In this document: in pieces, positions 6,100 through 21,917 of the stretch
Layout: every line of letters starts with the position of its first letter
How positions within the stretch are numbered: the first letter of the stretch is position 1
Source of the DNA: Candidatus Rifleibacteriota bacterium
Lineage (GTDB): Bacteria > Muiribacteriota > Ozemobacteria > Ozemobacterales > Ozemobacteraceae
Direction: 5' to 3'
DNA length: 62,819 nucleotides
Assembly (NCBI GenBank): GCA_012517355.1
Contig: JAAYVD010000083.1
Coordinates: 1-62,819, forward strand
The notes under the pieces: model-generated
What the model saw: the letters and a program-made list of their open reading frames with translations, nothing else
What the model was told of the DNA's origin: nothing
Databases searched by the model: none
Position numbers and translations under genes: made by a program

Positions 6100-6165
6100 T
6101 ACCCGACCCCCTGAGGGGCAGCATCCCGGTCCGCATTCTGCTACATTGCAGGGACGGTGGTCCAC

Positions 6166-9096
6166 ATGAGAGCGATTGTGCGTTCGGCATTCCCGTTGGT
6201 GCTTCCCTGCCTGCTGTCGTTCTTCCCCGTGTTCATGGTCTTCCAGTATGAGGCCCTGCAAGAACGGTTTGCCAGGGAAGGAGGGACCGAACGGTGGGAA
6301 GAGAAGGTCGAGAGCCGGGTCGAGGAATTCCGCGCCGGCCACACCTTCCAGAGCCAGATCGCGCAGCTCGCCGAGGCCATGAAGGAGCGGATCGCCCGGA
6401 CCATGCGCTGGAACCGGCAGCCGCGCCTGACCGGGGAGGTTTTCGCCACGGCGGTGGGGCGGACCTTCCGGGGCCTGCACCGTCCGGCCGGCACGATGGT
6501 GTTCGGCTTCGCGACGGGGCCCGACGGGGCGGCGGAACTGCTGAAGGGGAAGGGGCTCGAGCAGGAGGGAGGGCGTTTCCTCGTCCGTTCCTTCGCGCAG
6601 ATGGTCGAGGACCGCCCCCCTCCTCTGGCGGTGAAGAAGGAGGTGTCCCAGCGGCTCTCCCAGGTCTTCGGCGACCTCATCTCCTGCGAACTGCTGTTCT
6701 TGAACCGGGGCCGGATGCTGATCCAGGCCGCCTGGCGCGGCCGCCTCGTCCACCTCTACTGGGACCGCATCATCGCCAACGGCCGGGTCGTGGGCGGCTT
6801 CGTCCTGATCCTGCCCGGGGACCTGCCGCACCAGGCCGCCCTCCTCCACTCGCTCCGGCACCATGTCTGGAAGAGGGATCCCGACTGCCGGCCCCTGCTG
6901 GTACCCATCGAGGTGGCCAGCGGCACCCTCCGCCCGCTCTTCCTTCCCACCCGTCCCCGTTCCTGGGGGATCGCCCGTGTCCTCCGCCTCCTGCACGGCG
7001 TGGGGAGCCGGGACGAAGTCGCCCGCTACGGCCAGGTGTCCGACCCGGCGCCCGGGGTACGGGTGCTCCGGACCGCGGTGACCATGGAACTCCCCTACGA
7101 GCTGTGGATCGTCAAGGAAGAGGGCGGCCCGGGCGGCGCCGCGGGAGCGGGGGGAGCCGGCGCGGGGGCGGAGGCGGGAGCGGCCGGCGAGGGGGGGCTC
7201 CTTTCCCGGCTTTTGCTGGCCGGCTGGGGATGTCTCTGGCTCGGCACCTTCGGATTCGTCTGGTGGTCGGGCCGTCCCCTGCGCCTGTCGATGAAGACCT
7301 GGTTCGTGGCCTACGTCTTCCTGGTCGGCGGCATTCCGCTGACCGCCCTGGCGGTCATGGGGGCGGCCCTGATCCAGCACACCGCCGACCGCCAGGCCCG
7401 CGAGAGCATCAGCCAGGCACGGTCCTTCCTGGAGAGGATCGACCTGAACAGCATGAGTGCCCTGACCACCTTCACCGAACAGTGCAAGGCGGCCCTGGCC
7501 GATCCCGCCATGAAGGACCTCCTGTGCTCGGACCGGGTCCTGGCCGGGCATCCCCTCATCCAGCGGTGTTTCGCCCGGTTCGCGCAGGCGGGGGTCCCCC
7601 TGGATTCCATCTTCCTGGCCCGGTTCGGCCAGGCCACCCTCCTGCTGACCCGGGACGAGGCATCGGCGCACGAGTTCCGCGAACTGGAAGAGCTGTTCCT
7701 GCCCCTGTTGTACAACTCCTTCCGCGGCCTCGAACCCGGCCGCATCGAAGCGGCCATCGTCAACCTGACGGATGTCCAGAAGTGGAACGTCGAGTTCGGT
7801 TCCTTCCTGGTCCACCCCAAGCTCTTGAACAGCGTCATCGCCACGCGGCGGCAGGGCAATTTCATGGAGATCGGGGACGGCCAGGTGTTCCACCTCTACG
7901 ACTTCATCGCCCGCCACGGCGTCATCCAGGCCGCCCTGGTCTTCCGGGCCAAGGCTTCCGAGGTCTTCTGGCTCCTGGTGAAGGACTGGATGCGGCCGCT
8001 GGCGCGCGAGTATCCCGGCCAACGGTTCGTGGGGGTCTGGAACTCGCCGCGCGGCCGCCAGTGGTTCTCCCCGACCCCCGCCGATCCCGGGCCGGAGACC
8101 CGCCGGCTGGTGCGGGTCATGACCGACGTCTCCCGCATGCGGGCCGGGATGGTGCAGCGGCATGGGGACCGGGCCTACGTCGGGTGCGCCGGCAAGCGGA
8201 TGAAGAACCTCTTCCTGGGCACGATCGTGGACCTCGGCCCCCTGCGGTCGATGGCTGGCCGGCGGTTGCGGGGCCTCGTCCTCACCGTCCTCGTCATCGC
8301 CGGCCTGATGGTCTTCGTCGCCTCGGCCATGGCGCGGTATTTCCTCGAACCGCTCCAGACCATGGAGAAAGGGTTCCGGGGCATCCTGTCGAAGGACTTC
8401 GGCACCCGACTGGGCTTCGCGCGGGACGACGAGCTGGGCGACGTGGCCGCCGCCTTCGACACCATGGTCGGCGGACTGAAGGAACGTGAGGAACTGGGCC
8501 GGTTCGTCTCGGGCACCCTCGACGTGTCGGTGGCCGCTGCCGAGCACCTCCCTGCCGAGCCGGAACGCAAGCCCGGCGCCGTCCTGGCCTCCGACATCCG
8601 CAATTTCACCACCCTGTCCGAACAGAATCCTCCCGAGGTGGTGGTCGAGATGCTGAACCTGCACCTGGAGGTCATGAGCGCGGAGATCAAGCGACAGGGC
8701 GGGTTCATCGACAAGTTCATCGGCGACGCCATCGTCGCGGTCTTCCTGGAGCCTGATCCGGCGGCCGCCACCGGCCAGGCCCTCGCCGCCGCACAGAACA
8801 TGATGGCCCGCCACCGCGAGCTCAACGCGACCCGCCGCCGCGACGGCAAGCTCTGTTACAGCATGGGGGTCGGCATCGCCGCCGGGGAGGTTCTGGTCGG
8901 CACCTTCGGGTCGGCCGACCGGCTCGAGTTCACCGTGCTCGGTGCCCCGCGCCAGGAGGCCGAGAACCTGGAGGCGCGCTCCAAGCAGGGCCGGTTCACC
9001 CGCATCGTGGTCGCGCCCGAGGTGGCCGCCCTCCATCCCGGCATCGCCTTCGCCCCTCTGCCCGGCACTCCCAGCCTGGAGATGGTCGAACGGTGA
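6166..9096 (+). CDS. Membrane class III cyclase, metal-site half (C1-like)
   Basis: The protein is about 976 residues; a GTG at 6157 would add three, and the numbering here uses that GTG. It has an N-terminal membrane anchor (about 8-27), a first periplasmic domain, two central membrane segments (about 350-410), a second periplasmic domain, a further membrane segment (about 705-727), a HAMP linker and a C-terminal adenylate/guanylate cyclase domain (about 800-970). The metal-binding Asp residues are present in SDIRNFT (D813) and FIGDAIVAVF (D857), and Lys853 is kept. The conserved Asn and Arg of the GDTVNLAAR region are replaced (FTVLGAPRQEAEN, giving Q933 and N937). Alone it should lack the transition-state pair. 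The next gene has the reverse pattern and overlaps by GTGA, so a heterodimer is inferred. Confidence 0.88.
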   Translation: MRAIVRSAFPLVLPCLLSFFPVFMVFQYEALQERFAREGGTERWEEKVESRVEEFRAGHTFQSQIAQLAEAMKERIARTMRWNRQPRLTGEVFATAVGRTFRGLHRPAGTMVFGFATGPDGAAELLKGKGLEQEGGRFLVRSFAQMVEDRPPPLAVKKEVSQRLSQVFGDLISCELLFLNRGRMLIQAAWRGRLVHLYWDRIIANGRVVGGFVLILPGDLPHQAALLHSLRHHVWKRDPDCRPLLVPIEVASGTLRPLFLPTRPRSWGIARVLRLLHGVGSRDEVARYGQVSDPAPGVRVLRTAVTMELPYELWIVKEEGGPGGAAGAGGAGAGAEAGAAGEGGLLSRLLLAGWGCLWLGTFGFVWWSGRPLRLSMKTWFVAYVFLVGGIPLTALAVMGAALIQHTADRQARESISQARSFLERIDLNSMSALTTFTEQCKAALADPAMKDLLCSDRVLAGHPLIQRCFARFAQAGVPLDSIFLARFGQATLLLTRDEASAHEFRELEELFLPLLYNSFRGLEPGRIEAAIVNLTDVQKWNVEFGSFLVHPKLLNSVIATRRQGNFMEIGDGQVFHLYDFIARHGVIQAALVFRAKASEVFWLLVKDWMRPLAREYPGQRFVGVWNSPRGRQWFSPTPADPGPETRRLVRVMTDVSRMRAGMVQRHGDRAYVGCAGKRMKNLFLGTIVDLGPLRSMAGRRLRGLVLTVLVIAGLMVFVASAMARYFLEPLQTMEKGFRGILSKDFGTRLGFARDDELGDVAAAFDTMVGGLKEREELGRFVSGTLDVSVAAAEHLPAEPERKPGAVLASDIRNFTTLSEQNPPEVVVEMLNLHLEVMSAEIKRQGGFIDKFIGDAIVAVFLEPDPAAATGQALAAAQNMMARHRELNATRRRDGKLCYSMGVGIAAGEVLVGTFGSADRLEFTVLGAPRQEAENLEARSKQGRFTRIVVAPEVAALHPGIAFAPLPGTPSLEMVER

Positions 9097-12092
9097 TCCG
9101 GGGCATGCGGGTCTGGGCGCTGCTGGGGGTGGCGTTCTTCTTCTCCCTGCCCTTCGCCATGCTGGCTTTCTACCGCTTGGAGGACCGGCACCTGAGCCGG
9201 GAACGGGAGATCGCGGTCCGGTGCGAGGAGGCGCGGAACCTGCTGGGCGAGATGGTCTTCAGCTGTTCGCGGGACTTCCAGGTGAAGCGGATGTTCCTCG
9301 ACTTCCACCGCCAGGTCGGGGAGCTGGTCCTGAACGCCACCTTCACCCCCGAACTGGCCGGGCGGATCCGGGACCTCCACCGGCAGGAGATCCTGCCGTC
9401 CTTCCCCCGTCACCATCTCTGGTTGCAGAAGGGCCACCAGAACGCCAGCGGCACCTGGGATCCGGAGACGCTGTTCGTGCATTCCGACCGGCCGGACTTT
9501 GCCGGGCAGGTGGCGATGCGGTTCTGGCGGCTCGTGCAGGACGAGAACGAGCCCCCCCCCGACTGGAGGGCCGCCACCCGGGAGATCCTGACCGGTTTGC
9601 TCCGGTTCCCCTTCCAATCCGACCTGGTACAACACACCCAGTTTCTGATCGCTCCCCGCGACGAAGGCTGCCTGCAGGTTTCCTCGGCCGTCGACGCCCA
9701 GACCGGCCTGTTCTGGTATTTTCCGAAAGGCGGCCAGACCCGCCTGCTGGTCGGGGTTGTCTACGATGACGAGACGATCCCGTCCCGGTTCGAGATCCGG
9801 CAGATGTTCCGGATGTACGCGGACCGGCCGGTCGGGATGGGCTTCTGCCCGCATGATGCCACGGCCCGGATCCAGTTCTCCGACCTGCTGGCCACCGCCA
9901 CCGATCTCCTCGGGTTCGTCACCGCGGAGATCCGCGGGAAGCGGATCGTGCAGTTCGAGGCGACCCGGGGCGACCGCTTCATCTGCGCCGCCCCCAACCT
10001 GGTGGGGCAGCCGGGCAACCTGTTCGTCGTGCAGTCCCTGGCCTGGAAGGGGGAGGCGGCGCGCCACGACCTGGCTTTCTTCGCGGTTCTTCTGCTGGCC
10101 TGGGGCTCCGGCAGCGCCCTGCTGTTGCGAAAGCTGCTGCGGGGCAGGGGACCCCGGCTGAAGGTCGATTACGCCATGCTGTTCGCCTTCTTCTCGGTCA
10201 CCTTCCTGCCCTTCTTCATCGCCCGGGGCCTGGTGGCCGACTGGTTCGCCGAAGAGCGGACGCGGGGGCGGGGGCAGGCCGTCCGTGACCTGCACGACAC
10301 CCTGCGGAAGATGGACGACGGCTTCCTGGCGGTCGGGGCGGAGCAATGGTACCGGTTCAAGGAAGTGGGCCGCCGGCCGGAGGTCGTCGCGGCGTTCGCC
10401 CGCGATCTGGCCCCGCAGCCCGCCCGCGATCTGCTGGAGCACCTCTACCGGATCACGCGGGTCTGCTACCCCATGGGGGCCAACCACGCCTGCCACGTCC
10501 AGGGGCTCGTGGCGTCGGGCCCCTTCCAGGTGGGAATGCTGCGCACGGGAACGAAGGGCGAGGCCCGGCAGAAGGGGGAGGCCATGATCGGCGACCTGTT
10601 CGGACCGCTGCTGCGGAAGATCATGGCGCGGGCCAACGGTCGCCGGCCGGGGGCCGATCCCCCCGGGGAAGGCGCTTCCCCGAAACCCACCCTGGACGGC
10701 CTCACCAGGGAGATGACCGACGACGTCACCACCGACCTCCTGCGGGCCATGCTGGGCGGCCTGGCCTTCTACACCTTTCTGGCCGACCCCGCGGCCCGCC
10801 TGTGCGGCCAGACCTTTTCGGTGCAATTGAACCTGGGGCTCTCCCCGGTGGTCAGGGCGGGCGGTATCCAGGCCATGTTCATCTGGTTCTGGTCCTGGTA
10901 CAACCTCGAGGAGGAGTATCTGAACATGTTGATGGGCAGAAAACCCTTCGTCTCCCACCCTGACCTCGACCTGATGACCGTCCGCAAGAATGAGTTCCTG
11001 GGCTGGGCCAAGATGCCCCGGCGCGGTGCGGTGCCGGCGGCGATGTGGCATCTCATCGACCGGGCGCGGCGGGTCGAGACCCCGCAGGTGTCGTTCGACC
11101 TGGAGGACAGCGGGCAGACGGTCATGGAGGTCTTCCCGGGGCGGAACCTGATGATGGTCCTGCTCGGGGGGTTCTATTCGCTGGAGCGGATGCTCGGGGA
11201 ACAACGGTTCCGGGAGCGGCTCAGCGGGGTGGCGGGGCTGCTGTTCGTCGTGGTCGCGATCCTCGTCGTCTTCCTGGTCAAGGCGCATTTCATGCGGCCC
11301 CTCGCGGAACTGGGCGCGGGGATCCGGGAGGTGGACGCCCAGCGCTACGACCGGCGGCTCGACGAAACGCGGGGGGACGAGTTCGGTTCCCTGGCCGCGG
11401 TGTTCAACGTGATGGTCAAGGGATTGCGCGAGGGAAGCATCCTGGGAAGGTACGTGTCCTCGGCGGTGCAGGCGGTGGTCAAGGACCAGGCGGCTTTCCG
11501 GCGCGCCCAGCGCGGCGAGAACCGCGAGATGACCGTGTTGTTCTCGGCCCTGCACGGGTTCGGGGAGATCACCGCGGGCGGCACCCCGCGCGCGGTCTTC
11601 GACCTGCTGGGCCGGCACCTGCAGGCCTGCAGCGACGCCGTCAAACGGCACGGCGGGGTCATCGACAAGGTCATCGGCGAGAAGGTGATGATCTTCTTCG
11701 ACCACGCCACCCTCGGAGGCGGCCCCGCCACCCTCGCCCGGGCCCTTGCCGTCGTCGCCGACATCCGGCGCGGCTGCGCCGGCCTGCCCACCCGGCCGGT
11801 GATCGGCCTCGCCTCGGGGGTGGTGATGGCCGGCATCCTGGGCGCCCGGGAGGTGCACCTCGATTACACCGTCATCGGCGACACCGTGAACCTCGCCGCC
11901 CGCCTGACCGCGATGGCCCACGAGGTTGGCGGCACCGGCGTGGTCCTCGGCGGGGCCACCCGCCGGTTCGCCGACCCGGCCGTCCCCATGCGGCTTCTCG
12001 GGCAGACCCGCGTCAAGGGCAAGACCGAGGAGATCGAAGCCTGGCTGCTGCTCGACGGCCCCGCCGCCGCCGAAGCCGGCAAACCCGCATGA
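9093..12092 (+). CDS. Membrane class III cyclase, Asn/Arg half (C2-like)
   Basis: The 999-residue paralogue of the preceding cyclase has the same layout: N-terminal anchor (about 5-25), sensor domain, two central membrane segments (about 327-385), second sensor domain, membrane segment (about 709-735), HAMP and cyclase domain (about 810-985). Here the first metal Asp is replaced by Ala (FSALHGF, A819) and the second by Glu (VIGEKVMIFF, E863). In contrast K859, T926, N933 and R937 of YTVIGDTVNLAAR are intact. It therefore looks like the C2 half of a mammalian-type adenylyl cyclase, able to work only with a partner that supplies metal ligands. The GTG start lies within the previous stop (GTGA), implying coupled synthesis. 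Confidence 0.88.
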   Translation: MIRGMRVWALLGVAFFFSLPFAMLAFYRLEDRHLSREREIAVRCEEARNLLGEMVFSCSRDFQVKRMFLDFHRQVGELVLNATFTPELAGRIRDLHRQEILPSFPRHHLWLQKGHQNASGTWDPETLFVHSDRPDFAGQVAMRFWRLVQDENEPPPDWRAATREILTGLLRFPFQSDLVQHTQFLIAPRDEGCLQVSSAVDAQTGLFWYFPKGGQTRLLVGVVYDDETIPSRFEIRQMFRMYADRPVGMGFCPHDATARIQFSDLLATATDLLGFVTAEIRGKRIVQFEATRGDRFICAAPNLVGQPGNLFVVQSLAWKGEAARHDLAFFAVLLLAWGSGSALLLRKLLRGRGPRLKVDYAMLFAFFSVTFLPFFIARGLVADWFAEERTRGRGQAVRDLHDTLRKMDDGFLAVGAEQWYRFKEVGRRPEVVAAFARDLAPQPARDLLEHLYRITRVCYPMGANHACHVQGLVASGPFQVGMLRTGTKGEARQKGEAMIGDLFGPLLRKIMARANGRRPGADPPGEGASPKPTLDGLTREMTDDVTTDLLRAMLGGLAFYTFLADPAARLCGQTFSVQLNLGLSPVVRAGGIQAMFIWFWSWYNLEEEYLNMLMGRKPFVSHPDLDLMTVRKNEFLGWAKMPRRGAVPAAMWHLIDRARRVETPQVSFDLEDSGQTVMEVFPGRNLMMVLLGGFYSLERMLGEQRFRERLSGVAGLLFVVVAILVVFLVKAHFMRPLAELGAGIREVDAQRYDRRLDETRGDEFGSLAAVFNVMVKGLREGSILGRYVSSAVQAVVKDQAAFRRAQRGENREMTVLFSALHGFGEITAGGTPRAVFDLLGRHLQACSDAVKRHGGVIDKVIGEKVMIFFDHATLGGGPATLARALAVVADIRRGCAGLPTRPVIGLASGVVMAGILGAREVHLDYTVIGDTVNLAARLTAMAHEVGGTGVVLGGATRRFADPAVPMRLLGQTRVKGKTEEIEAWLLLDGPAAAEAGKPA

Positions 12093-12381: not shown

Positions 12382-12438
12382 GGATCCATGGGCAACGTGC
12401 GGGCCGGGTCGCCGGCGACCGGGTGCGGCGGCTTTTCC

Positions 12439-13740
12439 ATGGACGCCGTGGAGCTGCTGCAGCGGCTGATCCGGTTCGACACCACCAACCCCCCGGGGAA
12501 CGAGCTGGGCTGCCAGCAGTTCATCCGCGGCCTGCTCGAGGGGGCCGGCCTGACCGTCGGCTTCCACGCCGCCACCCCCGACCGGCCCAACCTGCTGGCC
12601 CGGCTGCCGGGGCGCGGAGAGGCTCCGCCGGTACTGTGGTACGGCCACGTCGACGTGGTGACGACCGCGCAACAGACCTGGACGGTCCCGCCGTTCGAAG
12701 GCCGGCTGCAGGACGGCATGGTCTGGGGGCGCGGCGCGCTCGACATGAAGGGCGGGGTGGCGATGATGCTGACCGCGATCCTGCGCGCGGCGGCGGCGGG
12801 CTTCCGGCCCCCGGGGGACCTGGTGCTGGCCCTCGTCTGCGACGAGGAGACGGGGGGGGAGAAGGGGGCGCAGTTTCTGGCCGACACGCACCCCGGGCTG
12901 TTCGCCGGCATCCGCTACGCCGTCGGCGAGTTCGGCGGCTGCACGACGATGGTGGGCGGGCAGCGCTTCTACCCGATCCAGGTGGCCGAGAAGCAGATGT
13001 GCGGCCTGCGGGCGACGGTGCGGGGGCCGGCCGGCCATGCCTCGATCCCCGCCCCCGGCGGCACCATGGCCCGGCTCGGCCGGTTCCTGCAGCGAATCGA
13101 TGCCCGCGCGCTGCCCGTGCACGTGACCCCGGTGGCCCGCCGCATGCTCGGCACGATGGCCGCCACCATCGGCGGCCTGCCCGGGCTGCTGTTGCGGCAG
13201 GTGCTGCGGCCGGCCACGACCGACCTCGTGCTCCGCCTGCTCGGCGCGCGCGGTCGGGACCTGTTCCCGCTGCTGCGCCACACCGCGGTTCCGACCCTGC
13301 TGCAGGGCGGGCTCAAGTACAACGTCATCCCCAGCGAGGCCACCGTCGTGCTCGACGGCCGCATCCTGCCCGGGTTCGCGCCAGCCGACCTGTTGGCCGA
13401 GGTGCGGGCGGTCACCGGCGACCTCGCCGACCTCGAGGTCATCCGCTTCCAGCCGGGACCGCCGGCCACCGACCTGGCGTGGTTCCCCACCCTGGCCGGC
13501 ATCCTCCGCGAACTCGACCCCACCGGCACGCCCGTTCCCCTCATGCTCAGCGGCGCCACCGATGCGCGGTTCCTCGCGCGGCTCGGCATCCAGACCTACG
13601 GCTTCCTGCCGATGCGCCTGCCCCCCGATTTCGCCTTCGCCCGGGTCATCCACGCGGCCGACGAGCGCATCCCTGTCGAGGCCCTGGCGTTCGGCGTCGA
13701 AGCCCTTTCCCGTCTCCTCCGCCACGGCCCGCCGCGCTGA
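12439..13740 (+). CDS. M20-family zinc metallopeptidase (ArgE/DapE/CPG2-like)
   Basis: The 433-residue protein has the M20 hallmarks: GHVDVV (metal His and Asp), RGALDMKGG (bridging Asp) and CDEETGG (catalytic Glu followed by a metal Glu). The dimerisation domain sits between about residues 170 and 300. The N-terminus ELLQRLIRFDTTNPPGNE is typical of the deacylase/carboxypeptidase group, so it probably hydrolyses an N-acyl or peptide amide bond in the cytoplasm. The substrate cannot be told from sequence. An ATG at 12388 would add 17 residues unlike the family, and neither start has a ribosome site. It is monocistronic and convergent with the DppA-like gene. Confidence 0.88.
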   Translation: MDAVELLQRLIRFDTTNPPGNELGCQQFIRGLLEGAGLTVGFHAATPDRPNLLARLPGRGEAPPVLWYGHVDVVTTAQQTWTVPPFEGRLQDGMVWGRGALDMKGGVAMMLTAILRAAAAGFRPPGDLVLALVCDEETGGEKGAQFLADTHPGLFAGIRYAVGEFGGCTTMVGGQRFYPIQVAEKQMCGLRATVRGPAGHASIPAPGGTMARLGRFLQRIDARALPVHVTPVARRMLGTMAATIGGLPGLLLRQVLRPATTDLVLRLLGARGRDLFPLLRHTAVPTLLQGGLKYNVIPSEATVVLDGRILPGFAPADLLAEVRAVTGDLADLEVIRFQPGPPATDLAWFPTLAGILRELDPTGTPVPLMLSGATDARFLARLGIQTYGFLPMRLPPDFAFARVIHAADERIPVEALAFGVEALSRLLRHGPPR

Positions 13741-14863: not shown

Positions 14864-14990
14864 GATCCGCATTAAGGCTTGCCGAAGGGGCTTTGCCCCT
14901 TCACCCCACCAGGGCCGATGGCCCTGGACCCTTTCTGCTGGCGAGGGAAACGCTGACGCGTTCACCTCGCGGAAGCTCCGCTTCGCGGTT
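14864..14990 (-). repeat. Dispersed multi-hairpin repeat, copy 1
   Basis: A roughly 125-bp element that recurs in opposite orientation at 22361-22483. Shared blocks include GGCTTGCCGAAGGGGCTTTG, CCAGGGCC...GGCCCTGGACCC and AACGCTGACGCGTTCACC. Each copy folds into at least three GC stems (GAAGGGGC/GCCCCTTC, CCAGGGC/GCCCTGG, and the GACGCGTTCAC region). It lies about 45 bp downstream of the giant vWA gene and could stop its transcription. It resembles REP/BIME-type intergenic repeats. Confidence 0.7.
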
Positions 14991-15033
14991 CGTTAGCCCT
15001 GGACCGGACGGTAGTTTCAAAAACAGGATGGTG

Positions 15034-18000
15034 TCACTCCTTTCCGACCTCGACGTGTTTCTTGCTGCCGCCGAAGGCGTGGAAGTAGACGTCAACCGCG
15101 GTCTGGTAGCCGTTCGAGAAGCCGCGGAAGCCTTCCTTCAGCTTGGCGTTGACGTCGACGCCGAAGATCTTCACGCGCGGCAGCTGGTCGAAGACCTTGG
15201 TCAGGTTCTCCTTGATCTTCCCGCCATAGTCGGTGTCGTCACCGTCGTCGCCACCCGCGTCGCCTCCTCCCCCGCCGCCGCCACTGTCGATCTGCTCCAT
15301 CGCATCGGCGGCCTGCTCCTTCAGTTCCTCGATCTTGTCGTAGTATTCCTTGGCCTTGCCGAGGTTGTCCTGGAACTCGGCCAGGATGGCGCCGATCTTC
15401 AGGGCGAGCGCTTTGGCCTCGGTGAGGATCTGCCCCTTGTCCTGGGTCTTGAGGGCGATGCTGCCGACCGACCAGACCGCCATGTTGATGCCGATCCAGG
15501 TGCCCTTCACGAACTCCCGCGTGTCCTCGCCGAGCGAGGTGGTCAGCATCGAGAACTCGGCCGACCCACCGTGGCAGCCGTTGTCGAGCACCGACAGGAC
15601 CTCGCCGGTCGCCGGGTCCATCTCGAGCCAGGCGAACCGCTCGCGGCCCGCCATCACCGTCGGCTTCGACGGGAAGAACAACACCTTCCGGTTTTCCTTC
15701 ACGGCTTTCACCAACCGCGGCGGGAAGGTGCCGGCCTTGGCCAGCTCCTTCGCCCAGGCGTCGCGGCCGCGGTCCACCGGCATGGCCAGGATCTCGGCGC
15801 CCTTCGGCGCGTTCCGCCACAGGTCGAGGTAGCCCATCCGCGCCCCGGCGGGGAAAACCTGCGCCTCGAGGCTCGACTGGAAGAACCCGTTGAGCAGGAA
15901 ATACGCTTTCCGCAGCGCCTCGTCGCCGGCATGGATCTCGTTGAACGGCTGCAACAGGTCGATCCGCGTGGTCAACCGCCCCTCGTCCCCCCGCTCCGAG
16001 ACCACGACCAGGCACCGTGGCTTCCGCAGCCGGCCCAGCACCAGGCCGCCGGCCGGCACCATCTCGCGGTCGAAGGCGGTCTGCCCGGCGATCACCTTGT
16101 ACAAAAGCTGCCGGTGATGCCACCGGACCGCGGTGAAGGGCTCCGGCTTCCTCACCGCCGCAAACGCGTCACGGAACGCCTTCTCCAGGGCGGTGGCCGC
16201 CGGCCCCGGCAGGTCGGGAAGGTTGATTCCCAGGGTGATCAGGAGCCGGTCGGGCGTCTGCCCCTCCGCCAGGTCGACCGTGTGCGTGTAGGGCCGGTCG
16301 AGGCCGCCGATCTCCACCCGGATGGCCGTGACCCGTCGCGGGTTCTCCAGCGCCTTCTCCCCGACCACCACCTCGCCGGGGGTGGTCAGGACCACGCCGT
16401 AGGAGGTCCGGCCCCGCGCGGAAACGGGCGCGAAGGCGAGGTCGATGGGCTCGTGGCCGAGTTCGTCGAACCGCAGGGTTTTCTGCAGCATCCGCACCTC
16501 GGCGCTCCGCGCACCGCCACCGCCCCCCAGCGCGGCGCCGGCGTCGGCGGCCCCGGCCCCCGGCGTGCCGTCGGAACCGGGTTCGAAGACCCCAAACACC
16601 GACACCACCGCCGTGCGGCTGTCGGGCGGCTGGGCGAGGCCGCCCCCGTCCCGCGGCCGGTAGACCAGGCCGGTCAGCTCACCGATGTCCTTCAGGAAGG
16701 GAACGACGAAGGTCTTTCTCCGCCCCCCGTCGCCGTCGTAGGAAACCCCGACCGGCACGGATTTCTCGCGCTTCACGTCGATCCCGTGGTAGTCGGACAG
16801 CAGCCGCGCCCCCGCCTCGGTGAAGGCCAGCGGCTCGAGCCGGGGCGCCCGGCCGAGCCGCGACAGCACCGTCACGGCCAGGTTGGCCGTGGCGCCGATG
16901 TCGCCGAACCCCTGCGTGACCACCCCGGCCGGGCTGCAGTCGGCATTCTGCACCCGCCCGTCGTGCGCGTTCTTCGGCAGGCAGGTGATCGAGGCCATCA
17001 GGCCGAGGAACTGCCGCTCGCTGGTGACCCCAGCCAGGACCGCCTCTCCGAACGTGTCGATGGGGGGAAGGACGGGGTCGTCGAAGCCGTCGTCCCGCTC
17101 CAGGCCGAGGACGGGGTCGGACGGCCGGCCCGCGTCGAGGGCCCGGTAGCGCTGCACGGCGGCGGCGACCGCCCCGTCAAGGAGCGAGGTGAACGCCGGT
17201 TCCCGTTCCGGCACCCGGGCCCGCCAGGCGATCAGTTCCGGCGTGGCGAACTCCCCCTTCCCGACCGGCACCTGGATCTGCTCGTCGTACGGCGACTGCA
17301 GCGTCCAGTTCTTCAGATCGGAACCGGGGTCGTCGAAGATCACGACCGCCCGCCGCGCCTGCCCCTCGAACACGCCGAAGCGGTCGTCGAGACCGAAGAT
17401 CAGCCCGCGGTTCGCCGTCGCCGGGCGCCCCAGGCCCTTGCCGGCCCCCGCCCCGCCGCCGCCCAGGCCGATCCGCCCGGCGACGGCCTTGGGACCGGGT
17501 TTGTAGCCCTTGTCGACCAGAACGAAGAAGTCGGGGGGGATCAGGGTCCCCTCCTTCCCGGGCCGGTCGACGAAGGTCACGTCGAGCAGCACGCTTCCCC
17601 GCAGCAGGGTCTTCGTCCCGCTGGTCACCTCGTCGGCGAGCGAAACCCCGCCTGGCACCTGCGTGAGCTGGTTGACCCGGACCTTCACCAGTTCGCCGTC
17701 GATCTCGGCCACCGGCGCCGGCGCCGCCACCCCCTTCCCCTCGGTCACCGGGATGACCGCCGACCCGGTGGCCAGGTCGAAGAACAGCTCCGATCCGCAG
17801 CCCTCCAGGGCGGCCGGCAGGTCGTAGACCAGCCGGACGACGTTCGTCGAGCCGGGCGCCAGCTGCACCGGGTCGCGGAACCCGAGCGGGGTGAAGGCGG
17901 TCACGTCGCCGAGCCGCACCATCAGGTCGCCCGACGCCGACGGGAACCGCAGCCAGATCCGGCGCGCCGGATCGATGTTCAGCAGGGCCTGCACCTTCGA

Positions 18001-21000
18001 CCGGAACTCCCCTTCGATGACCCGGAACCGCGCGAAATCGCCCGCGGGGTAGCGGTCGATCCGGTCCTCGAGAGCGGTCGCGGTCACGGCGAGCGCGAAG
18101 CCGTCCGCCACATCGGCGGGCTTCGTCACCGGCAGTTTCTCGAGGTCGCGCCAGGCGTCGGGCAGCGCGCCGGCGATCGGCATCTGGATGTGCCCATACG
18201 CGGTGTCGAAGAAATGGAGCGACTGCCGGGCGAACCCTTCCCTTCCGGCCGGCACCAGGAACACCATGGTGCCCGCCACCGCGCCGCCCGCGGGAATGGC
18301 GATCGACGGGTCGCCATGCCGCGTGACCGGCCGTTCCACGAGCCAGGTGGCCTTGGAGGCGGGGAACAAACCCTTCCCGTCGAGGCCCAGGTAGAAATGC
18401 TGGAAGATGCTCGGAATCACGTAGGGGATGTTCTTCTCCGTGCAGTTCTTCAACTCCATCCCGACCGCGACGAACTGGAACCCGTAGCGGCGCGCCTCGA
18501 CGCCCAGGAGGCGGTCGAGGAAGTCGGCCCGCCGGAGCGTCAGTTCCATGGCCCGGTTCGTCATCGCCCGGCCGATCTCGGTGCTGGCGGCGACGACGGT
18601 GTCGGCATCCTCCACCACGGCGCCGCCGGCCGCCGCGGCCGGGGCTGGGACCGCGGCCACCGCCGCGACGACGCGCTCCCCGCCCGTCTCCACGGTCATT
18701 ACGTCGGGTTCCCGCGGCGTGCCCGCCTGCTGCGGCGGGCTGAACTCCGCCTGCTCCTGCACCCGGTAGCGGAGCGTCTCGCCCTGCGCGGTCCGGTAGG
18801 CGATCCCCACGGTGAGCGGGACGGTCTTCGCCGCGACGGGCTGCTGGAGCCGCTGAAGCAGCGCCTCGAGCTTCTTCGCGATCTCGTCCACCGATTCGCT
18901 GACGACGTATTCCCCGCCGGTCGCCTTCGCCGCCTCGGCGAACACCTTCTCCTTGTCCGGGGTCGAGATGCCCATGCCGATCCACAGCACGAAGATGCCC
19001 TGCTCCCGGATCCGGGCCAGGATCTTCTGGTAGTCGGCCATCTGCCCGGGGGCCACCTCGAGGCCGCTGTCGGTATGGAAGACGATCACCTTCCGCCGGC
19101 TCGACACCGGCACCAGGTTCTCGAACGCGGCGGTCAGGGCCTTCACGATCGGCGTGCCGTCATCGGCGATCATCTCCCCGAGCGCCTTGAGCAGCCGCAC
19201 CCGGTCGGTGGTCGCCACCTGCCGCCGGTTCACCTCGATGCGCTTGGCGCCGCCGCCCTGGAAGGTGGTGAACTGCATCACCGCCCCCGCCGGCAGCCGG
19301 TCGACGAACTCGCGCACCATCCGCTTCGTCTTCTCCATGCGGAAATCGCCGTCCTTCGCGTTCGGCTTCTTCGGGTCGCTGTTCATCGAGCCGGAGTTGT
19401 CGATCACCAGCGACACGACCGGCGTGTCGCCGGCCCGGTTCTCGACCGGCCGCCGGTAGGTGATGACGAAATGGTTGCCGAGCCGCGACCCGATCGCCGC
19501 GAAGACCGACCGCAGCGCCTCCGGATCACGGGCCGGGTAGTACTGCCCGTCCGAGATCGCCGCGAATTCGGTCAGGCAGCCGATGTCCGGCGCCCCGTCG
19601 ACGGCGGCGAGGGTCTCGTCGGCGTTGAGCCGCTTGCCGAACCCGATCGTGAAGACCGGCACCTTCCCCTCGGCCACCTTCTTCGCCGCCTGCGCCCGGG
19701 TGAGGGAACTGCCGGTGCCGCGCTGGTCCTCGCGCGAGTCGACCCCGTCGGTGAAGACCACCACGGCGGGGCGGCTCTTCCCCTGCACCAGCCCGACCGC
19801 CTTGGCGGTGGCGTCGTAGAGCCGGGTCGACCCCTCCGCCTTCAGCGACGACAGGTTCTTCACCGCCTCCGACGCCGTGGTCCCCTTCAGCTCGCGCACC
19901 GTCCCATCGAAATCGATGAGTTGTACAAAGCTGCCGGCGGGCAGCCCCTGCAGGAAGGCCTTCACCGCAGCGACCGTCGCCTTCATGTCCTTCTTCATCG
20001 AGCCCGACGAGTCGACGGCCAGGGCGATGCTGCACGGGGCGACCTCCCGCCGGATGTCGACGATCTCGGTGTCGACGCCGCTCTCCGTGATGACGGTATT
20101 CTCCTTGGTGGGGAACACGTCGCGCTCGCGCGGGTCGCTCACCGACAGGGCGAGCTCGGCCGTCGCGCCGAGATCCTTCTTCCCGTCGATCGTGATCTCG
20201 CCCGTCAACTCGCGATCGTCGTCCCCGGCGGCGAGGGCCCGGTTGGCGGCCGTCAACCCCTCGGGAAGGCGCACGACCGTCGTCTCCCCCGCCGACACCG
20301 GGATCAGCTGGGCCTTGGCCTCGCGGAACTCCGGGGTCAGCTCGTTGACGACCGTGTAGTAGCCGGCCGGCAGCCGGAACGTGACGTCGGTCCCGCAGGC
20401 CGCCCCGCCGTCGCGGGTCACCCCGCCGGCCAGCGACCGGCCGTGCTGCCGGATGTCCACGAAGGCCTGCGGGGTGGCGAACACCTTCCCCGCCGGGGCG
20501 TTCTTCACGACCAGGGTGCCCAGCCCGTCGCCCCCCCGGAAACCCGGCAGGTCGCTGGCCGTCTCGACCAACCGCAGCGTGACCTCGTCGGGCAGGGTCT
20601 GCCCGTATCTGGCCAGGGTGAACTCGAACAGGCCGGGACCCTGCGGGAAATCGTACAGCGTGTATTCGGGATACTCGGCGGCCGTCAGATACTTCTGGTA
20701 GCGGACGAGCGTGGTTCCGTCGCGCGTGGTGGTGTCGTTGTCGGCCCGCACCACGAGCGCCCCGTTGGCGAGCCGGACCTGCAGCACCAGGAATTTCCGG
20801 CCCGTTACCTCGGCCAGGAACCGGAAGGCCCCATCGCGGCCGAACCGGTCCTTCGTGACCTTCAGCTCCTCGCCGACGGCCAGCACCCGTTGCCGCAGCA
20901 CGCGCAGATCGACCCGGTCGGCGGCATGGGCGTCGACGTCCGCCCACCAGACCGCGCCGGGCCGGGCCACGCGGAACACGAACCCGTCGTCGCCACCCGC

Positions 21001-21570
21001 CGGGAAGACCTCGCCCCCGATCCGGCCGGCATACTCCTTCAGGAACGGCAGCACGTCTCCCCTGGCGGTCTTGAACGACAGGGCCCAGGATTCCCCGTTC
21101 AGCACCCGCTGCACCTCGGTGCCGCTGTCGAGGAAGGTCAGCTTCAGGTTGCCCGCCTCGCGGTAGCCGGCGCCGAGCGTGTAGAGGGTCTGCGCGCCCA
21201 GCGGGTTGATCTCGGGAACCGGGATCTTCCAAGCCCCGACCTCGCCGGTGACCGGCGTCTCGGGGGGAAGGCCGCGCGCTGTGAGGTTGGCGGTCGCGGG
21301 CTTCTGCAGGCGCGCCGCCAACCAGTCGGCAAAAGGCGGCTTGAGCGCAGGAATCGGAGAGGAGGCCGCGACCGGCATGGCGGTTCCCACCGCCGCCGAC
21401 GACGCGGCCGGCGACAACGCCACGACCGGCGGTGACGCCACATCCGACGACGACCCGCCGGGTGAGAACGCCCGGTCGGGTGACGACGCCACGACGGGCG
21501 CTCCCGCCTCGACCGCGACGGCACCCACTGCCACCAGGACCGCCAGCATCACCCCGAGCCATGTTTTCAT
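15034..21570 (-). CDS. Giant secreted double-vWA protein A
   Basis: The 2178-residue protein has a signal peptide (about 1-23) and an Ala/Ser/Pro-rich segment to about 75. A beta-rich N-terminal region is followed by two vWA domains in series. The first has the MIDAS motif DSSGSM at about 520 and the second DNSGSM at about 724; both motifs can bind a divalent metal and ligands. About 1400 residues follow, with a GGGGGGGDAGGDDGDD stretch near 2095 and no membrane anchor seen. The same architecture and C-terminal motifs recur in the paralogue at 33888-39632. It probably acts outside the cytoplasm in adhesion or assembly (inference). The ATG at 21570 has GGAG at 8 nt and is monocistronic. Confidence 0.85.
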   Translation of the reverse strand: MKTWLGVMLAVLVAVGAVAVEAGAPVVASSPDRAFSPGGSSSDVASPPVVALSPAASSAAVGTAMPVAASSPIPALKPPFADWLAARLQKPATANLTARGLPPETPVTGEVGAWKIPVPEINPLGAQTLYTLGAGYREAGNLKLTFLDSGTEVQRVLNGESWALSFKTARGDVLPFLKEYAGRIGGEVFPAGGDDGFVFRVARPGAVWWADVDAHAADRVDLRVLRQRVLAVGEELKVTKDRFGRDGAFRFLAEVTGRKFLVLQVRLANGALVVRADNDTTTRDGTTLVRYQKYLTAAEYPEYTLYDFPQGPGLFEFTLARYGQTLPDEVTLRLVETASDLPGFRGGDGLGTLVVKNAPAGKVFATPQAFVDIRQHGRSLAGGVTRDGGAACGTDVTFRLPAGYYTVVNELTPEFREAKAQLIPVSAGETTVVRLPEGLTAANRALAAGDDDRELTGEITIDGKKDLGATAELALSVSDPRERDVFPTKENTVITESGVDTEIVDIRREVAPCSIALAVDSSGSMKKDMKATVAAVKAFLQGLPAGSFVQLIDFDGTVRELKGTTASEAVKNLSSLKAEGSTRLYDATAKAVGLVQGKSRPAVVVFTDGVDSREDQRGTGSSLTRAQAAKKVAEGKVPVFTIGFGKRLNADETLAAVDGAPDIGCLTEFAAISDGQYYPARDPEALRSVFAAIGSRLGNHFVITYRRPVENRAGDTPVVSLVIDNSGSMNSDPKKPNAKDGDFRMEKTKRMVREFVDRLPAGAVMQFTTFQGGGAKRIEVNRRQVATTDRVRLLKALGEMIADDGTPIVKALTAAFENLVPVSSRRKVIVFHTDSGLEVAPGQMADYQKILARIREQGIFVLWIGMGISTPDKEKVFAEAAKATGGEYVVSESVDEIAKKLEALLQRLQQPVAAKTVPLTVGIAYRTAQGETLRYRVQEQAEFSPPQQAGTPREPDVMTVETGGERVVAAVAAVPAPAAAAGGAVVEDADTVVAASTEIGRAMTNRAMELTLRRADFLDRLLGVEARRYGFQFVAVGMELKNCTEKNIPYVIPSIFQHFYLGLDGKGLFPASKATWLVERPVTRHGDPSIAIPAGGAVAGTMVFLVPAGREGFARQSLHFFDTAYGHIQMPIAGALPDAWRDLEKLPVTKPADVADGFALAVTATALEDRIDRYPAGDFARFRVIEGEFRSKVQALLNIDPARRIWLRFPSASGDLMVRLGDVTAFTPLGFRDPVQLAPGSTNVVRLVYDLPAALEGCGSELFFDLATGSAVIPVTEGKGVAAPAPVAEIDGELVKVRVNQLTQVPGGVSLADEVTSGTKTLLRGSVLLDVTFVDRPGKEGTLIPPDFFVLVDKGYKPGPKAVAGRIGLGGGGAGAGKGLGRPATANRGLIFGLDDRFGVFEGQARRAVVIFDDPGSDLKNWTLQSPYDEQIQVPVGKGEFATPELIAWRARVPEREPAFTSLLDGAVAAAVQRYRALDAGRPSDPVLGLERDDGFDDPVLPPIDTFGEAVLAGVTSERQFLGLMASITCLPKNAHDGRVQNADCSPAGVVTQGFGDIGATANLAVTVLSRLGRAPRLEPLAFTEAGARLLSDYHGIDVKREKSVPVGVSYDGDGGRRKTFVVPFLKDIGELTGLVYRPRDGGGLAQPPDSRTAVVSVFGVFEPGSDGTPGAGAADAGAALGGGGGARSAEVRMLQKTLRFDELGHEPIDLAFAPVSARGRTSYGVVLTTPGEVVVGEKALENPRRVTAIRVEIGGLDRPYTHTVDLAEGQTPDRLLITLGINLPDLPGPAATALEKAFRDAFAAVRKPEPFTAVRWHHRQLLYKVIAGQTAFDREMVPAGGLVLGRLRKPRCLVVVSERGDEGRLTTRIDLLQPFNEIHAGDEALRKAYFLLNGFFQSSLEAQVFPAGARMGYLDLWRNAPKGAEILAMPVDRGRDAWAKELAKAGTFPPRLVKAVKENRKVLFFPSKPTVMAGRERFAWLEMDPATGEVLSVLDNGCHGGSAEFSMLTTSLGEDTREFVKGTWIGINMAVWSVGSIALKTQDKGQILTEAKALALKIGAILAEFQDNLGKAKEYYDKIEELKEQAADAMEQIDSGGGGGGGDAGGDDGDDTDYGGKIKENLTKVFDQLPRVKIFGVDVNAKLKEGFRGFSNGYQTAVDVYFHAFGGSKKHVEVGKE

Positions 21571-21712
21571 CCCATCCGCTCCTCGTCCGTCATGACATCG
21601 CCGACAGGATCCCGCATCGGCCGTCCCGGAGAGGGTTATACCATCGGGGTCCGGTGGACACAACCGGGGGGAGGGGAGGAATTTCGGGATCCGGAAGGAG
21701 AACGGAGGAAAT

Positions 21713-21789
21713 GGGAGAAGGGGAGAACGGGACGGTTCGACGGAGGGGTAGGACGTCAATTCGGGAACCGGAAGGGATGGGTCGGACGC
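21713..21789 (+). repeat. 77-bp direct repeat, copy 1
   Basis: Identical to 21918-21994 over 77 bp, at an offset of 205 bp. The unit begins GGGAGAAGGGGAGAACGGGA and ends GGGATGGGTCGGACGC. It contains CGGTTC and GAACCG about 30 nt apart, an inverted pair. Flanking sequence is also partly similar, suggesting duplication of a unit of about 205 bp. Confidence 0.85.
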
Positions 21790-21917
21790 GGCACATCCTC
21801 GCGTGGACCGCATGCCGGGACTCAGGCGTCGCGCCAGCCCCCCCCCGAAATCGCCGGGGAAGCGGGGAAGGGGGGGGAAGCAGGCATTTCAGGAACCAGC
21901 AGGAGAATGGGGGAAAA

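Follow-up and report, generated by a model that had tools for sequence, protein, structure and literature searches.

Two overlapping genes in the window, by which we mean the whole 62,819-nucleotide stretch of DNA analysed here, very probably specify a class III adenylyl cyclase of the C1/C2 type, an obligate heterodimer of two unlike subunits that has one live catalytic site and one dead one. The window derives from a 7.1 Mb Riflebacteria MAG (G000) of the family of Ozemobacter. An initial annotation had read this gene pair as a C1/C2-type heterodimer, and that reading is supported by the sequence comparisons and structure models described below.

Both predicted proteins begin with a membrane and sensor part and end with a class III cyclase domain, with a HAMP domain between the two (Table 1), and both exceed the curated cut-off of PF00211 (Guanylate_cyc). 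Translation of the upstream gene could alternatively begin at an ATG at 6166. Hydropathy indicates three to four membrane helices plus HAMP for each half; the two six-helix membrane domains of C1/C2-type cyclases are absent. In the upstream protein, the hydrophobic helices lie near 6175-6231, 7303-7359 and 8275-8331, and two mixed helix/strand regions occur between them in the AF2 model. No Pfam family apart from HAMP was identified in the sensor region of 18 members, and an NCBIfam search of this region returned only HAMP-region matches. In the whole-model fold search, the top-listed matches were all cyclases. The gene that follows the pair in the window encodes an M20-family peptidase (12388-13740; PF01546, E 2.8e-30). 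Farther along, two open frames longer than 2100 aa overlap on opposite strands (14893-21435 on the forward strand, 15034-21813 on the reverse strand); the forward frame had no match in the Pfam search.

Table 1. Features of the cyclase gene pair, in window coordinates.
Feature	Position	Strand	Basis
Upstream gene, "metal half" cyclase, 979 aa from GTG 6157	6157..9096	+	ORF; HAMP and cyclase domain; family-wide alignments A1, A7
Upstream protein, membrane and sensor part	6175..8331	+	Hydropathy; AF2 model
HAMP domain, upstream protein	8329..8481	+	PF00672, E 2.5e-6
Class III cyclase domain, upstream: D813 (ASDIRN) and D857 (IGDAIV) kept; Q933 and N937 at Asn/Arg positions; also K853, T926, A930	8578..9024	+	PF00211, E 1.6e-8; residue positions; fold
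GTGA overlap, downstream GTG start inside upstream TGA stop	9093..9096	+	Sequence
Downstream gene, "N/R half" cyclase, 999 aa	9093..12092	+	ORF; family-wide alignment A2
HAMP domain, downstream protein	11289..11432	+	PF00672, E 1.4e-9
Class III cyclase domain, downstream: A819 (FSALHG) and E863 (IGEKVM) at metal positions; K859, T926, D930, N933, R937, K977 kept	11520..12047	+	PF00211, E 1.3e-8; 3r5g match; residue positions

The catalytic residues of both cyclases are at the positions first quoted for them, and the GTGA overlap of the two genes was likewise borne out. Taken singly, each window protein lacks the full catalytic set, unlike the usual bacterial homodimer form. The downstream domain aligns with the solved Pseudomonas aeruginosa CyaB (3r5g) at E 5e-17 with no gaps in the motif regions, so that the substitutions are correctly placed and alignment error can be ruled out as their source. 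The upstream cyclase domain keeps the class III fold, with a TM-score of 0.76-0.78 to CyaC and CyaB (AF2 model of the upstream protein, pLDDT 79).

A class III cyclase site is built from two monomers, one supplying both metal-binding Asp residues and the other supplying Asn, Arg and the triphosphate Lys (PMC2576301). Given this two-monomer site, the division of residues implies that homodimers of either window protein would have no complete site, and would be inactive, and that a heterodimer would have exactly one, together with one dead pseudo-site. In such a heterodimer, binding of the catalytic metals would fall to the two Asp of the upstream metal half. The downstream N/R half would contribute Lys and Thr for base recognition, Asn for orienting the ribose, the transition-state Arg and the triphosphate Lys. 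A Lys/Thr pair at the base-recognition positions fits K/T-type adenylyl cyclases and points to ATP as the likely substrate, and the product would be a second messenger, probably cAMP. Because sensor regions and a HAMP domain are present separately in both halves, we infer that two inputs may be combined at one active site.

The window's genome encodes many such proteins. A profile search found 87 PF00211 matches, and 88 class III domains were aligned on one model and sorted according to whether the first metal Asp and the Asn/Arg pair are present. Complete domains number 28, nearly all of them singletons; 31 have the metal Asp with a broken Asn/Arg pair, and 29 have the Asn/Arg pair without the first metal Asp. 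Fifty-six of the incomplete domains fall into 28 adjacent pairs, every one composed of one metal half and one N/R half. The metal half comes first in 25 of these 28, and both halves lie in a single open frame in 12. Neighbouring genes were compared and none recurs, so each pair seems self-contained. Proteins with cNMP-binding domains (24 matches in this genome) are possible receptors for the product.

The few incomplete domains outside pairs lie on C50 (a small cyclase-like domain), C112 (an orphan gene of N/R type), C166 (a small degenerate domain next to a complete cyclase) and C20 (the second metal half of a trio). In the trio (L031:2647-12526), one shared N/R half comes after two metal halves, either of which could be its partner. 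The arrangement of a complete cyclase followed by a small degenerate cyclase-like gene (196-245 aa frame) is present in two genomes of the genus (L061:4594-10665 in G000, C166; L213:1009-4874 in G001, C23). Both genomes also encode an unpaired cyclase of about 790-810 aa in which the first metal position is Gly (L062:3830-6256 in G000, C112; L216:2024-4381 in G001, C29); the G001 copy lacks the Asn/Arg pair as well.

We compared 80 adjacent pairs: the 28 of the window's genome, 17 from G001, 18 from G017 and 17 from named loci, all of which share ancestry and are thus not independent events. The initial annotation had proposed that reciprocal residue loss leaves the heterodimer with one complete site, and the same division was found in 80/80 pairs; a search of these related genomes for pairs with a full-set member found none (0/80). 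Both metal Asp are present in 80/80 metal halves, and Lys, Thr, Asn and Arg are each present in 80/80 N/R halves. The N/R halves also keep the Asp930 equivalent (78/80) and the triphosphate Lys or Arg (79/80), and have lost the first metal Asp in 79/80; the exception (L230) has this Asp, with Glu at the second metal position. Among metal halves, the Lys is kept in 35/80 and the Asp930 equivalent in 6/80, and the C-terminal part with the triphosphate Lys is absent in 71/80. Arg is kept in 15 of the 80, and in those 15 the Asn is lost. An Arg of the R484 type separates the halves weakly. Since the first metal Asp and the Asn/Arg pair served in part to set the classes, the counts for those residues arise partly by construction. 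Lys, Thr, the Asp930 equivalent and the second metal Asp played no part in defining the N/R class and thus provide an independent check. Full-length alignments give the same invariant residues. Chance neighbourhood was rejected as an explanation for the pairing because all 80 pairs divide the residues alike.

The claim that the downstream partner has lost both metal Asp holds for the window pair and fails for the family, in which the second Asp is kept in 45/80 N/R halves. E863 is thus a peculiarity of the window pair rather than a family rule.

Both halves are encoded in one open frame in 31/80 pairs. The C1/C2 arrangement first proposed for two separate proteins is supported, and the separateness applies to the window pair, which as two genes does not unite C1 and C2 in a single polypeptide, but not as a general rule. 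The fused frames contain two cyclase and two HAMP domains by Pfam, and were found in several separate MAGs, for which reason we rejected assembly accidents as their origin. In the tree, fused pairs occur in two subgroups, each of which also includes split pairs.

For structure modelling we took a naturally fused chain of a Riflebacteria MAG from the rumen, trimmed to the 1191 aa that span its two cyclase domains. Alignment A6 was used for this model; A3-A5 were discarded because MAFFT had placed split N/R sensor regions on the first cyclase domain. The catalytic blocks have pLDDT values mostly of 81-97 and 74-94; overall pLDDT is 67 and pTM 0.50, and the sensor part is poor. The best PDB match over the whole chain is human AC5. 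Query TM-scores are 0.28-0.30 for AC5, AC8 and AC9 versus 0.13-0.17 for targets with one cyclase domain, a doubling that would require simultaneous superposition of the two catalytic domains. Thus, the catalytic domains of this one relative appear to be packed like C1 and C2, which form a wreath-shaped, head-to-tail dimer, in a model from a program (AF2) that was trained on adenylyl cyclases.

The catalytic domains were placed in a maximum-likelihood tree, where 28 of 29 metal halves group together (support 99/95) and 23 N/R halves make up a second group (100/99). Distances among metal halves correlate with those among their partners (Mantel r 0.66, with 0/20,000 permutations as high), and the sensor parts are homologous within each kind of half. 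Together these features indicate that the pairs were duplicated as units and that the two halves diversified together. The metal-half sensor part, searched without the cyclase domain, was found in 22/24 genomes of Ozemobacteraceae and in 0/16 of other families of the phylum; metal-type cyclase halves are present in the other two family genomes (L088, L091). Named records are from Candidatus Riflebacteria and Ozemobacteraceae. One locus labelled Methylomirabilis (L099) was taken to be a binning or naming error, and its contig was assigned to Ozemobacteraceae. In the best reading, the cyclase pairs constitute a family-wide sensor array in Ozemobacteraceae.

Outside of the Riflebacteria, an adjacent reciprocal pair was identified in the MAG of Spirochaetes bacterium GWE1_32_154 (L134:4011-7441). 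One member has Gly in place of Asn and Glu in place of Arg, and the other has His in place of the first metal Asp. The pair has a different tree position from the Riflebacteria pairs and N-termini that look unrelated by eye, which suggests an independent case. The same spirochaete encodes a one-sided pair (L150:4347-6983), an Asn/Arg-broken, metal-type cyclase adjoining a complete one, possibly an intermediate state.

Three other explanations were considered. Both proteins could be dead pseudocyclases that serve only as nucleotide-binding or scaffold sensors, as might be thought from the absence of a full residue set from each and from the missing triphosphate-Lys segment of most metal halves. 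Decay, however, would not leave all residues of one site invariant, and every catalytic residue is kept somewhere in 80/80 pairs, divided as one site needs; we therefore regard this explanation as very unlikely. It is also conceivable that neither half partners the other, and that each instead joins and modulates a complete homodimeric cyclase. The 28 complete domains of the window's genome could supply such partners, and the one-sided spirochaete pair places a metal-type half beside a complete cyclase, but strict adjacency, the many fusions and the co-diversification of the halves make this very improbable.

The remaining alternative accepts the arrangement and questions the product, which could be cGMP or another cyclic nucleotide rather than cAMP. 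A few residues can shift class III specificity, yet the base-recognition Lys and Thr, of the K/T adenylyl cyclase type, occur in all N/R halves, so another product seems unlikely. By comparison, a solved guanylyl cyclase has Glu and Cys (PMC2576301). An obligate heterodimeric adenylyl cyclase therefore remains the preferred reading of the window pair.

According to a 2022 review, bacterial class III cyclases are homodimerising monomers, and no fused dimer of this class is known in bacteria (PMC9552081). Set against this, the Ozemobacteraceae have dozens of pairs, with split and fused ones occurring together in this single family. One and the same genome encodes enzymes of predicted homodimeric, split heterodimeric and fused form, so that what is gained from unlike or fused halves is directly testable. 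Half-broken cyclases of this type, if read singly, would be wrongly written off as degenerate. Our literature search, which most subscription journals lay outside of, found no paper on Riflebacteria cyclases. A broader reading, which we offer tentatively as somewhat more doubtful than probable, is that a large bacterial counterpart of the animal membrane adenylyl cyclases, single-chain C1-C2 forms included, arose independently in the Ozemobacteraceae. It would serve as an array of about 17-28 two-input sensors (three genomes counted), and the dead pseudo-site would have been retained as an allosteric pocket comparable to the forskolin site.

The closest parallel is with mammalian AC1-AC9, in which two unlike domains likewise carry the metal Asp on one and the Lys, Asn, Arg and triphosphate Lys on the other, with one live and one degenerate site. 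Fused bacterial relatives share the membrane-C1-membrane-C2 order, and the fused model has AC5 as its top PDB match. Mammalian C2 has Asp where the bacterial N/R halves have Thr. The bacterial proteins also differ in having HAMP domains and extracytoplasmic sensor regions where AC1-AC9 have two six-helix bundles, and the window pair is two genes rather than one chain. The heterodimer principle is known from mammalian membrane cyclases, and also from soluble guanylyl cyclase alpha/beta (PMC2576301) and the chytrid rhodopsin cyclases NeoR/RGC (PMC8815786). The latter two resemble the predicted heterodimer in having unlike subunits from separate genes; however, they are eukaryotic, have guanylyl specificity and other sensor domains, and are not encoded by adjacent, overlapping genes. 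The bacterial homodimers CyaB, CyaC and Rv1625c have the same catalytic fold, but they carry the full residue set on one chain and form two equal sites, whereas here the set is split between two proteins or two halves of one.
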